Of a stretch of 64,000 nucleotides of DNA, positions 1-54,818 are shown piece after piece. A program made the translations under genes and the position numbers. The first letter of the stretch is position 1; every line of letters begins with the position of its first letter. Under the pieces are notes generated by a model. It had not been told where the DNA came from. It made no database searches and was given only the letters and a program-made list of their open reading frames with translations. The stretch comes from Agromyces aurantiacus (GTDB lineage Bacteria > Actinomycetota > Actinomycetes > Actinomycetales > Microbacteriaceae): NCBI RefSeq assembly GCF_016907355.1, contig NZ_JAFBBW010000001.1, positions 744,001 to 808,000 on the forward strand, written 5' to 3'.

Positions 1-219
1 TGGTGCGGGTGGACTCGGGCGAACTCGGGATTCGATGCATCCAAGGGGTGAGGTGGTCGGGGTGTGCGGTCTCGAGTCCCGGGTTGGTGTGGGTGGACCC
101 GCGCGAACTCGGGATTCGGTGCCCCGGGGGTCGGGTGGTCCGGGGTTGAGGTGGTCGGGGTGTGTGCGGTGCCGGGTCCCGGGTTGGTGCGGGTGGACTC
201 GCGTGAACTCGGGATTCGG
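1..219. repeat. Family A array: 46-nt nested palindromes
   Basis: Two full copies lie at 74-119 and 174-219 with a 100-nt period, and a partial copy (1-37) is cut by the window edge. Each copy has outer arms near GAGTCCCG and CGGGATTC and an inner near-palindrome around GTGCGGGTGGACTCGC. The spacers are also related: a GAGGTGGTCGGGGTGTG stretch recurs at about 50 and 149. The same 46-nt element forms the array at 52193-52403. This stretch upstream of the LuxR-type regulator otherwise holds no convincing gene; its apparent reading frames come from the repeats. Confidence 0.85.
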
Positions 220-50887: not shown

Positions 50888-50980
50888 CCCCAGTGATCAG
50901 ACGGGATCGCGCGCGACCTGGACTGAAGTGGCCTCGGAATTCGTGCCACAATGAAACGAATCGCCGCGAGGGGAGGGCCG

Positions 50981-52138
50981 ATGACGACCGCCGACGCCGA
51001 GATGAGCGACAGTGCGCGCGACCTCGCACGGCTCGTCCTCATCCACGGGCCGGTCTCGCGTGCCGAACTCGGGCGACGACTCGGCCTCTCGCCCGCGAGC
51101 CTCACCCGCCTCAGCAAGCCGTTCCTCGAACGCGGCCTGTTCGTCGAGACGGCCGAGGCCGCGCCTGCGGGAGCGGGCCGGCCGGCCAAGCCCCTCGATG
51201 TCCGGGTCGACGCCGGGCGGTTCGTCGGCGTGAAGCTCACGGGCGACACGGCCCACGCCGCGCTCACCGACCTCCGCGCGAGCCAGCTCGCCGACGCCGA
51301 GCGCACGCTCCGCGACCATGAGGTCGCCTCGGTCGTCGACGCGGTCGTGGCGCTCGTGCACGAGCTCGGCGCAGCTGCCGACCTCGCCGACGGCGAGTTG
51401 GCCGGCGTGGGTGTCAGCATCGGCGGCAACGTCGCCGACCAGCGCGTCGTGACGCGCGCGCCGTTCCTCGGATGGCGCGACGTCGCTCTCGCCGACCTGC
51501 TCGAGGCGCGGCTCGGCGTGCCCGTCGACCTCGAGAACGACGTGACCGCGCTCACCGTCGCCGAGCAGTGGTTCGGCCCCGCACGAGGCACCGACGCCTT
51601 CGCAGTCGTCACCGTCGGCGCCGGCGTCGGCTACGGACTCGTCATGCACGACCGGGTGGTCACCACGCGCGACACCGGTCTCGGCCTCGGCGGGCACCTG
51701 CCGCTCGACCCCAGCGGTCCGCTCTGCGCCGACGGGCATCGCGGTTGCGCGAGCGCGATGCTGTCGATCCCCAGCATCTGCGCGCAGCTCGGCATCGCGC
51801 TGGGCCGCGAGGTGCGCTACGACGAGGTGCTCGAGCTGGCCGCGTCGGGCCATCCGCTCGCCCGATCGGTGACGGATGCCGCGGGGCGCGCGCTCGGCCG
51901 GATGATGGCGTACATCGCCAACCTCGCCATGGTCGACACGATCGTGCTCTCTGGCGAGGGCGTGGCGCTGTGGGAGGTCGCCGGTGAGACCGCGCTCGCG
52001 TCGCTCGCCCTGGACCGCGACCCAGAGGCGACCCCCGTCGTCGTGCACGTCGACGACGCCGGCTTCGACTCGTGGGCCCGCGGCGCGGCGGCGGTCGCGA
52101 TCCAGGGCGCGCTCGCGCGCCTGCGCCTGCCCGCCTGA
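50981..52138 (+). CDS. ROK-family transcriptional regulator
   Basis: A 385-residue repressor with an N-terminal winged helix (SRAELGRRLGLSPASLTRL) and a sugar-kinase-like ROK domain: GVSIGGNV, LENDVTALTVAEQWFG and AVVTVGAGVGYGLV. The zinc-binding segment is degenerate: CADGHRGC keeps two of the usual cysteines. ATG 50981 is chosen because GGGGAGGG lies just upstream; an ATG at 50951 lacks a site. Divergent from the alpha-galactosidase, it most likely represses that operon until an imported sugar or its phosphate binds. Confidence 0.88.
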   Translation: MTTADAEMSDSARDLARLVLIHGPVSRAELGRRLGLSPASLTRLSKPFLERGLFVETAEAAPAGAGRPAKPLDVRVDAGRFVGVKLTGDTAHAALTDLRASQLADAERTLRDHEVASVVDAVVALVHELGAAADLADGELAGVGVSIGGNVADQRVVTRAPFLGWRDVALADLLEARLGVPVDLENDVTALTVAEQWFGPARGTDAFAVVTVGAGVGYGLVMHDRVVTTRDTGLGLGGHLPLDPSGPLCADGHRGCASAMLSIPSICAQLGIALGREVRYDEVLELAASGHPLARSVTDAAGRALGRMMAYIANLAMVDTIVLSGEGVALWEVAGETALASLALDRDPEATPVVVHVDDAGFDSWARGAAAVAIQGALARLRLPA

Positions 52139-52192
52139 CCAGGGGCACCTCCCGCGCGAGCGCCGCGCGCTCGCACCTGCCCACGGCCGCCC

Positions 52193-52403
52193 GAGTCCCG
52201 CCTTTGTGCGGGTGCACCCGCAGCAACCCGGGACTCGGGAGGGTGTCGGCGCGTGTCGCGGGGGCCGGTGTTGCCGAGTCCCGCCTTGGTGCGGGTGCAC
52301 CCGCAGCAACCCGGGATTCGGCATGGGCGGCGAGGTGTCACCGCGGCCGGTGTTGCCGAGTCCCGCCTTTGTGCGGGTGCACCCGCACAAACTCGGGATT
52401 CGG
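52193..52403. repeat. Family A array: three 46-nt nested palindromes
   Basis: Copies at 52193-52238, 52276-52321 and 52358-52403, each exactly 46 nt, spaced 83 and 82 nt. The outer arms are GAGTCCCG with CGGGACTC or CGGGATTC; the inner part of the third copy, GTGCGGGTGCACCCGCAC, is a perfect 18-bp palindrome. Spacers share a GCGGCCGGTGTTGCC-like end. The array lies between the convergent ROK and LacI genes, starting 55 nt after the ROK stop. The same element occurs at 1-219. Confidence 0.9.
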
Positions 52404-52405
52404 AT

Positions 52406-52526
52406 GGGGCTGGATGGGGCGGGCCGGGGCTGGATGGGGCGGGCCGGGGCGGGATGGCGCGGCGCGCGCCGGCGCGGGCGGCGCGGATGGCCGCGGCGCG
52501 CGCCGGAGCGGGCGGCGCGGCGCCGC
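52406..52526. repeat. GC-only tandem and low-complexity tract
   Basis: Two copies of GGGGCTGGATGGGGCGGGCC (52406-52425, 52426-52445) are followed by two longer G/C-rich units built on GCGCGCGCCGG and GCGGGCGGCGCGG. The G-runs could form quadruplexes. Together with the palindrome array this explains the 389 nt between the ROK and LacI genes; I see no gene there. Confidence 0.7.
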
Positions 52527-52527
52527 G

Positions 52528-53544
52528 CTACTCGGGCGGGCGAGCCGTGCTGGAACGCACGCGGAGCTCGAACGGCAACGGCGTCGACGCGGGCGGCGCG
52601 GCATCCGGGCCCGGCTCGAGCTGCTCCATGAGGATCTCGACCGCCTTCTCGCCCTGGCCCCGCGGGAACTGCGCCACCGTCGAGAGCCCGAAGAACTCGG
52701 AGAGGTCGTAGTCGTCGACGCCGATGATCGAGACGTCGCGCGGCACGACCATGCCGAGGTCGCGTGCGGCGAGGATGCATCCGATCGCCATCTCGTCGGA
52801 TGCCGCGAAGATCGCCGTCGGCCGGTCGTGCGGTGCGCCGAGCAGCTGCTTCGCGGCGTGGTACCCGCCCGCGATGGTGAAGTCGGCGGGCGCGAAGAGG
52901 CGCGCGTCGGGCTCGATGCCCGCATCGCGCAGCGCCGCCTCGTAGCCGAGCCGGCGGTTCGTGGGCAGGTGGAAGTCGAGGTCGAACGCGAGGTCGCCGC
53001 CGATGTGCCCGATGCGGCGGTGCCCGAGCCCGATGAGGTGCTCGGTCGCGAGGCGCGCGACCGCGACGTCGTCGATCGTGAGCGTGCGCACGCCCGGGAT
53101 CGGGCCGCCGACGCCGACCAGCGGCTTGCCGAGGTCGTGCAGCCGCTCGACCTCGTGCGGCGTCAGCTCGAGGGAGACGGCGATCACCGCGTCGACGCGC
53201 TGGCGCAGGAGGAAGTGCTCGAACACGCTCGCCCGCTCGCGCCCGTCGCCCGAGAGGTTGTAGAGCGTCAGGTCGTACCCGTGCCGCAGCAGCGCCCGCT
53301 GGGCGCCCTCGAGCACCGAGGAGAAGAACCAGCGGTTGAGGAACGGGATGACCACGCCGATGTTCCGGGTGCGGCCCGATGCGAGGCTCGACGCGTTCGA
53401 CGAGACGACGTACCCGAGGTGCGCGGCGGCCTCCTCGACCTTGGCCTTGGAGCCGGGGGAGACGTGGCCGCGGCCGCTGAGCGCGCGCGACACCGTCGCG
53501 GTGGACACCCCCGCGAGCTTGGCCACCTCTTCGATGCCGACCAT
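52528..53544 (-). CDS. LacI-family transcriptional regulator
   Basis: A 338-residue repressor: N-terminal LacI helix-turn-helix (IEEVAKLAGVSTATVSRALS), hinge region with VSSNASSLASG, and a periplasmic-binding-type effector domain (IGVVIPFLNRWFFSSVLEGA, then AIFAASDEMAIG). ATG 53544 has GAGGGAAC upstream; the longer open frame is not used. It could recognise the TGNAANCGNTTNCA sites near 5.9 and 61.7 kb, or regulate the adjoining alpha-galactoside operon; neither can be decided here. A TAGGAT box lies at 53604-53609 on its strand. Confidence 0.9.
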   Translation of the reverse strand: MVGIEEVAKLAGVSTATVSRALSGRGHVSPGSKAKVEEAAAHLGYVVSSNASSLASGRTRNIGVVIPFLNRWFFSSVLEGAQRALLRHGYDLTLYNLSGDGRERASVFEHFLLRQRVDAVIAVSLELTPHEVERLHDLGKPLVGVGGPIPGVRTLTIDDVAVARLATEHLIGLGHRRIGHIGGDLAFDLDFHLPTNRRLGYEAALRDAGIEPDARLFAPADFTIAGGYHAAKQLLGAPHDRPTAIFAASDEMAIGCILAARDLGMVVPRDVSIIGVDDYDLSEFFGLSTVAQFPRGQGEKAVEILMEQLEPGPDAAPPASTPLPFELRVRSSTARPPE

Positions 53545-53728
53545 GTTCCCTCGCTCGTCGCGCCCGTCGTGGGGCCGCCCGGGATGCGGCAGCGCGACGT
53601 TCGATCCTATCGCCGCACGGAGTGGCGGTTTGCTGCGGCCCGCGTTCTGGGGTAGGAAAGGCACAGTCAAGGGCCGGTCTTCGGGGGCGTGGCTTGCCCG
53701 CGGAACGAGCGACGAGAGGAACGAACAC

Positions 53729-53896
53729 GTGAAGTGGGTCAAGCGGATCCTCCTGGCGCTCGTGGCGCTGTTCGCCCTCTTCTACCTGGTCACCCGACCG
53801 GAGGACGCCGCCAACGCGGTGCAGGGCGCCGTCGCCGCCGTCTGGGGCGGCGTCGAGGCCGTCGGCCGGTTCTTCACGTCGCTGGCCAGCGCATGA
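53729..53896 (+). CDS. 55-residue membrane protein
   Basis: Short protein with one N-terminal hydrophobic helix (about 5-19, LLALVALFALFYLV) and a second, weakly hydrophobic Ala/Val segment (NAVQGAVAAVWGGVEAV). GTG 53729 follows GAGAGGA. Its stop codon overlaps the ATG of the PH-domain gene (ATGA), so the two are coupled and probably act together. Not recognised as a named family. Confidence 0.7.
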   Translation: MKWVKRILLALVALFALFYLVTRPEDAANAVQGAVAAVWGGVEAVGRFFTSLASA

Positions 53897-54736: not shown

Positions 54737-54818
54737 GGCGAGTTACCCAAGCGGCCAAAGGGATCTGACTGTAAATCAGCTGGCATAGCCTTCGGGGGTT
54801 CGAATCCCTCACTCGCCA
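54737..54818 (+). tRNA. tRNA-Tyr (GTA)
   Basis: Class II tRNA of 82 nt. The acceptor GGCGAGT pairs with ACTCGCC (54811-54817) and A54818 is the discriminator. The anticodon stem CTGA/TCAG encloses the loop CTGTAAA with anticodon GTA at 54771-54773. A long variable arm follows, and the T loop reads GGTTCGAATCC. CCA is not encoded. A possible -10 box, TATCCT, lies at 54690-54695. Confidence 0.95.

Follow-up and report, generated by a model that had tools for sequence, protein, structure and literature searches.

REP and REPIN elements, which go with a RAYT (Y1) transposase, are dispersed, extragenic, repeated, palindromic and species-specific, form tandem clusters that include their flanks and have one nuclease gene flanked by copies on either side. 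In this work, we describe a family of 46-bp palindromes in Agromyces aurantiacus that is alike in all these respects, the flanked gene being here that of P0001 and not a RAYT. The family was noticed in a window of 64,000 nucleotides, positions 744001-808000 of the single 3,884,057-base chromosome (window base 1 is genome position 744001). Its arrays are phased on the DNA helix, oriented with replication and restricted to one lineage, and the arms of its palindromes vary independently. In our judgement the chances are about even that the arrays are dispersed duplex sites bound by P0001, acting in a REP/RAYT-like manner with a different nuclease. The choice of P0001 as partner is supported by association, and we infer that it binds, cuts and mobilizes the sites.

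The differences from REP/RAYT concern both partners. A PF01797 search of the whole genome gave no match to RAYT/Y1 transposases, whereas 5 of 14 control genomes matched, and the partner proposed here is a DUF559 (Vsr-like) nuclease, one half of which is predicted to be AbiEi-like. The sites, for their part, show duplex symmetry without arm covariation, and helical phasing. The arrays would work like REP/RAYT without being members of it, and with both the Y1 transposase and arm covariation missing we do not retain the REP/BIME-like membership that a preliminary description of the window had offered as one of three readings.

The antitoxin-repressors AbiEi and Rv2827c, which the predicted fold of P0001 residues 2-188 resembles, autoregulate through inverted repeats of this kind. 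AbiEi binds two 23-bp inverted repeats whose half-sites lie 3 bp apart. Each of our 85 copies of 46 bp likewise consists of two 23-bp inverted repeats, and judged by length the half-site would be of the same size as in the AbiEi target, but here the half-sites abut, about 85 copies are dispersed over the chromosome and a predicted nuclease domain is fused in P0001. The predicted catalytic fold of residues 191-294 is like that of Vsr, VsrA (DUF559) and the homing endonuclease I-Bth0305I, from which P0001 differs by its predicted AbiEi-like half. Vsr acts on T:G mismatches (PMC12907096).

The five full copies of the window and their regular spacing, as first described, were confirmed, with the dyad-centred 46-mer frame lying one base to the left of the earlier coordinates: the spacing is 100 bp for the first pair, and in the second array it is 83 bp and then 82 bp. 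The first array crosses the window edge and counts five copies in the genome, with starts from 743823 to 744173. The features are as follows, palindromes and spacers being without strand.

Genome 289749-290639 (outside the window, locus L010): P0001 gene, 296 aa, between two arrays
Window 1-34: right-hand remainder of a palindrome copy that the window edge truncates (genome 743989-744034 when complete)
Window 73-118: 46-bp palindrome copy, two 23-bp inverted half-sites
Window 119-172: 54-bp spacer, G/T-rich on the leading (+) strand
Window 173-218: 46-bp palindrome copy, the final one of the first array
Window 50951-52138, + strand: predicted ROK/NagC-Mlc-like regulator gene, with scores below the curated cut-offs of those models
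Window 52192-52237: first palindrome copy (46 bp) of the second array
Window 52238-52274: 37-bp spacer, G/T-rich on the leading (+) strand
Window 52275-52320: second palindrome copy (46 bp) of the second array
Window 52321-52356: 36-bp spacer of the second array
Window 52357-52402: third palindrome copy (46 bp) of the second array
Window 52528-53742, - strand: convergent open reading frame (ORF) on the far side of the second array, LacI-type regulator, start probably too long

The stop codon of the ROK-like gene lies about 54 bp upstream of the second array. At gathering scores, the sole Rfam match in the window is a tRNA gene on the + strand (window 54737-54818), and the palindromes have none.

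With the 211-base region of the second array as query, 100 matches were listed and 20 loci were then fetched. Above 30 bits, a symmetric weight matrix without gaps gave 85 copies, 81 of them distinct in sequence, in 23 arrays of 1-6 copies, which answers the question of further genomic copies raised at the outset. Of the 87 copies given by a profile search, 85 fit the ungapped 46-bp frame; the other two, one of 47 nt and one truncated, both belong to L015. The half-site consensus, CGARTCCCGSSTTnnnGCGGGTG, spans 23 bp and is mirrored without gap. A degenerate 44-bp pattern with at most three mismatches had 82 sites in the whole genome and also 82 in the 20 fetched loci, so that no such copy lies elsewhere in the genome; the reversed control pattern had none. 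GANTC is a known methylation motif elsewhere, and it occupies half-site positions 2-6 in 75/85 left arms and 79/85 right arms, its N being the degenerate base of the half-site. The six-copy array L028:3084-3619 alternates, by eye, between two palindrome subtypes, which together make up a dimeric unit of some 187 bp.

The distances from one copy to the next cluster at 73, 83-84, 93-94, 104-105 and 113-115, with 79, 80, 90, 100 and 130 off the helical phase. All 62 spacings gave a resultant (R) of 0.74 at a period of 10.45-10.5 bp, and the 37 left after removal of near-equal within-array spacings gave R = 0.61 at period 10.7; neither value was reached by any of 5000 jittered sets. When one spacing was taken from each of 19 arrays, the period scan peaked at 10.5 and the mean R was 0.76, a value that no set out of 20000 reached, whether the null was uniform or jittered. 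Together with the 82 sites against none for the control, this phasing supports the earlier claim of a selected structure and not a chance outcome of GC richness.

Covariation between the arms, on which the preliminary description had staked its reading beforehand, was not found: 80.4% of cells were paired against 82.9% in shuffles of all copies, and 0.768 against 0.777 at one copy per array. The deficit over all copies is not significant once related copies are removed. Such a lack of covariation counts against a folded element, yet not against a duplex site, and the symmetry extends 3-4 bp beyond the palindrome as TTCS...GGR. The palindrome is read here as half-site recognition on the duplex helix and not as selection of a hairpin or RNA. 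RNA folds are stable, and each of three copies tested folded better in the leading-strand sense than in reverse, as would follow from the G/T excess of that strand. Selection for G-U pairing as a source of the asymmetry at position 4 was unsupported by between-array shuffles. Among the readings first offered, that of a protein-binding array is the best supported, from the phasing, the rigid length and the independent arms.

The arrays also carry a polarity. On the leading strand, 54 of the 85 copies have G..T at position 4/43 and 3 have A..C. Taken array by array, the polarity follows replication in 17, is reversed in one (L021) and has no net sign in five. Four arrays have both flanking ORFs head-on to replication (L009, L012, the first of L018, and L019), and in all four the polarity follows replication and not transcription. 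In the 62 spacers the leading-strand G-C skew is 0.333 and the T-A skew 0.423; the corresponding values for 104 control intergenic regions are 0.001 and 0.007, so near to zero that a genome-wide strand bias is ruled out as the source. By array, the spacer G-C skew is positive in 16 of 19, negative in L021 and near zero in two. A functional direction, an insertion direction or local strand-biased mutation are possible sources. L021:3077-3378 (genome 3306076-3306377), the only array reversed in both palindromes and spacers, possibly reflects a local inversion.

With dnaA at 366250 and the terminus taken as the point opposite, 22 of the 23 arrays lie within 0.55 of the origin-terminus distance and 21 in the origin half (Kolmogorov-Smirnov p = 2.6e-4; p = 0.0011 at 18 clusters). 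Intergenic DNA made up 14.9% of the origin-side and 11.2% of the terminus-side sample, a near-even share that cannot alone explain the placement. A sequence-unrelated palindrome family, described below, shows a weaker origin trend in two other genomes in which dnaA was located (G009, Kolmogorov-Smirnov p = 0.009; G255, p = 0.054, with genome length rounded), and the origin bias may therefore be general and not site-specific.

At locus L010, arrays of six and three copies lie on either side of the single gene P0001, and the whole 1739-bp stretch with gene and arrays is missing at the junction of G009, the relative nearest by glyS (94%). Of the RAYT/Y1 or other nuclease gene with matching flanks that had been suggested as a check, a candidate of the second kind was found, outside the window. 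P0001 matches PF04480/DUF559 with 25.0 bits (cut-off 20.6). A search of PDB by sequence gave nothing at E <= 0.1, and viral contigs held no confirmed relatives. In the Microbacteriaceae, 290 P0001-like proteins at E <= 0.001 were counted among 8000 candidates scored, from Agromyces, Leifsonia, Cryobacterium, Microbacterium and others, mostly labelled 'hypothetical' or 'DUF559'.

With P0001 as query, the fetched loci yielded relatives in other taxa that adjoin long palindromes. We surveyed 12 loci, namely L258-L265 (every distinct plasmid and phage place from five family queries) and L124, L170, L237 and L248, leaving out L010 of A. aurantiacus itself and L065, which had been fetched by palindrome pattern. 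A palindrome of score >= 20 lay within 200 bp in five (L170, L258, L259, L261, L262) and in none of L124, L237, L248, L260, L263, L264 and L265; L170 and L259 are syntenic, so that the independent count is 4/11. The background at this score was 6/504 ORFs (named loci L100-L179), and 6/319 and 5/161 for free flanks. At score >= 17, 4/11 compares with 19/504 (p = 8e-4) and with 9/161 (p = 0.005). The palindromes of L170, L258, L259 and L065 lie 49-75 bp upstream of the start, and the strong ones of L261 and L262 on the 3' side of the nuclease gene. In a tree of 13 proteins (L124 left out; most supports modest), palindromes adjoin L065, L170, L258, L259 and L261 in the part closest to P0001; there L260 has weaker ones on either side, and L237, an ORF of 177 codons, has none. 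Outside this part one of five has a palindrome.

The family-adjacent palindromes in the plasmid collection are repeated, each only in its own organism. The A. aurantiacus half-site matrix does not recognise the palindromes beside other family genes, and clear mutual resemblance was found only between those of the orthologous L170 and L259; CGAG stands at the outer end in 4/8 family-adjacent palindromes against 7/79 of the background. Further long palindromes occur at L259:5571-5836; one of them belongs to a family for which BLAST gave 38 places in Arthrobacter sp. StoSoilB13, and the palindrome behind the L260 nuclease gene is 39/48 identical to it.

The three nearest named relatives by PurA (88-89%) are Agromyces. 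Among relatives of A. aurantiacus, arrays were found in none of 59 other genomes taken to be of the same genus, which is how the suggested search for the 46-nt site in related Microbacteriaceae turned out. There the site model, with stricter filters and 103 candidates scored per genome, gave full-length single relatives only in G035 and G009 and short weak matches in six others. The outer-arm pattern, searched in 199 family genomes, matched 64 times in A. aurantiacus and once each in 16 of the 198 others, its reversed control matching in 21. The exact degenerate 46-mer had no stretch in named genome contigs, a set outside which near relatives possibly fall; the 38-bp core had no match in viral contigs, nor had the window array by blastn in plasmids and phages. 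Junctions covered on both sides were compared with G009 only. The gaps in A. aurantiacus and G009 are, in bp, 399/26 at L009, 1739/0 at L010, 289/101 at L011, 265/185 at L013, 432/35 at L014, 376/256 at L026, 631/48 at L027 and 611/66 at L028; L016 (1485/313) and L017 (1677/85) differ in genes too, and L012 (1305/1767) is not informative. The shorter G009 junctions mark the arrays as lineage-specific, and at the level of this one comparison gain in A. aurantiacus or loss in G009 would both fit. This agrees with the early suggestion of a mobile non-autonomous unit, the mobility itself being presumptive.

Spacers are related within an array. The edges of an array are also closer to its own spacers (best identity 0.59 and 0.54) than to the spacers of other arrays (0.42 and 0.40); therefore the units were duplicated together with flanking DNA. 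Between arrays the spacers are nearly unrelated apart from composition (10.1 against 9.2 in shuffles, standard deviation about 0.4), and common ancestry was rejected as the excess is only about two standard deviations, mostly from the edges. In their repeats and spacers the arrays do not fit CRISPR: the repeats differ (81 distinct of 85) and the spacers are related within arrays.

With ORFs predicted from length and codon composition, and copies plotted against gene ends as initially advised, an array start or end lies <=115 bp from a predicted stop codon in 21 of 23 arrays; the second array of L018 is 171 bp from one and L027 lies between divergent ORFs. The neighbours are unrelated (purB, glyS, purA, D-Ala-D-Ala ligase, cardiolipin synthase, regulators), which rules out the regulon of a single repressor. 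The purA region of a record labelled Vibrio cholerae 35D (L177) is 68% identical to the actinobacterial query, and the contig is probably mislabelled or contaminated.

G009 (C1, L222-L239), G255 and G012 carry another dispersed near-palindrome of about 75-80 bp, with outer TTTCAGGA..., which occurs at 19 places in G009 and at 18 in G255, always at least about 1 kb apart and biased to the origin side; it has no match in the A. aurantiacus genome. Behind glyS, other genus genomes (L074, L077, L072, L075, L078) carry, by eye, other palindromes or short palindrome tandems, which suggests a fast turnover of palindrome families in the genus. Turnover at the same sites was rejected: 18 of 19 G009 loci hold that genome's own family and five align with A. 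aurantiacus array loci, but only behind glyS (1/5) do palindrome and array share a junction, roughly the chance expectation. A second palindrome query, from G010, had only two places in G010 and hence is no family.

The placement of the arrays invites an explanation in which an unrelated nucleoid protein binds them, their position and phasing serving segregation, domain structure or nucleoid occlusion, perhaps in division timing, with the position of P0001 accidental. Noc is of ParB type and SlmA of TetR type, unrelated to the folds predicted for P0001, and both recognise single sites, not phased arrays. Their sites are palindromic and not uniformly distributed (PMC4726725), and SlmA sites are described as commoner near the origin; the terminus-side depletion of our arrays is similar, and both it and the helical phasing would fit. 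We nevertheless think such a role unlikely. The unrelated family of G009 and G255 trends alike, arrays missing from 59 other same-genus genomes would be unusual for a cell-cycle system, and the palindromes beside P0001-family genes elsewhere are left unexplained. Decidedly unlikely, in our view, is that genes of the P0001 type are autoregulated through the adjoining palindrome as operator, all other copies being neutral tandem duplicates without present function. The autoregulation of AbiEi and Rv2827c, the upstream position in L170, L258, L259 and L065 and array edges that resemble their own spacers speak for it, but the phase is held across arrays with unrelated spacers, where neutral drift would blur it, and the strong palindromes of L261 and L262 lie 3' of the gene.

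A REP/REPIN-type hairpin that a since-lost Y1/HUH enzyme moved in single-stranded form on the lagging-strand template would account for the orientation with replication in 17 of the 18 arrays with net asymmetry and for the better folding of the leading-strand sense, and ordered REPIN clusters are likewise tandem repeats including flanks (PMC3116915). Against it stand the missing Y1_Tnp match (other HUH families were not searched), arm pairing that is not conserved, the lack, by eye, of a one-sided foot sequence in the 23 array flanks, where only the symmetric TTCS...GGR edge is seen, and a rigid length and helical phasing that would be unexpected of hairpins; we hold it to be very improbable. 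An RNA-level role, as terminator, attenuator or processed hairpin behind genes, seems extremely improbable, in spite of the nearness to stop codons and the stability of the hairpins. Intrinsic terminators (a hairpin with a T run) numbered zero in window 51900-52700, the sole stretch scanned, the orientation follows replication where both ORFs are head-on to it, and the arms do not covary.

If the arrays are indeed sites of P0001, it would be the AbiEi-like part of the protein that binds the palindrome, in a same-face assembly. Beyond this, and more speculatively, the nuclease half may nick at or beside bound sites during replication, and such nicking could drive both the insertion of palindromes into gene junctions and the growth of tandem arrays. 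In its widest form, which we put forward tentatively and with less than even confidence, the proposal is that a fused AbiEi-Vsr nuclease propagates its own 2 x 23-bp duplex palindromes over a host chromosome, and may also protect them, in phased, replication-oriented arrays, that palindrome and nuclease change together between species, and that this is a previously undescribed counterpart of REP/RAYT, built from unrelated parts and present across actinobacteria. The open-access literature searched, judged largely from titles and abstracts, gave no link between DUF559 and palindromes or REP-like elements. If P0001-like proteins have a cognate dispersed site, these numerous proteins would gain a role and a direct assay, and the origin-side, replication-oriented and phased arrays would be a readable record of a protein assembly acting on the chromosome.
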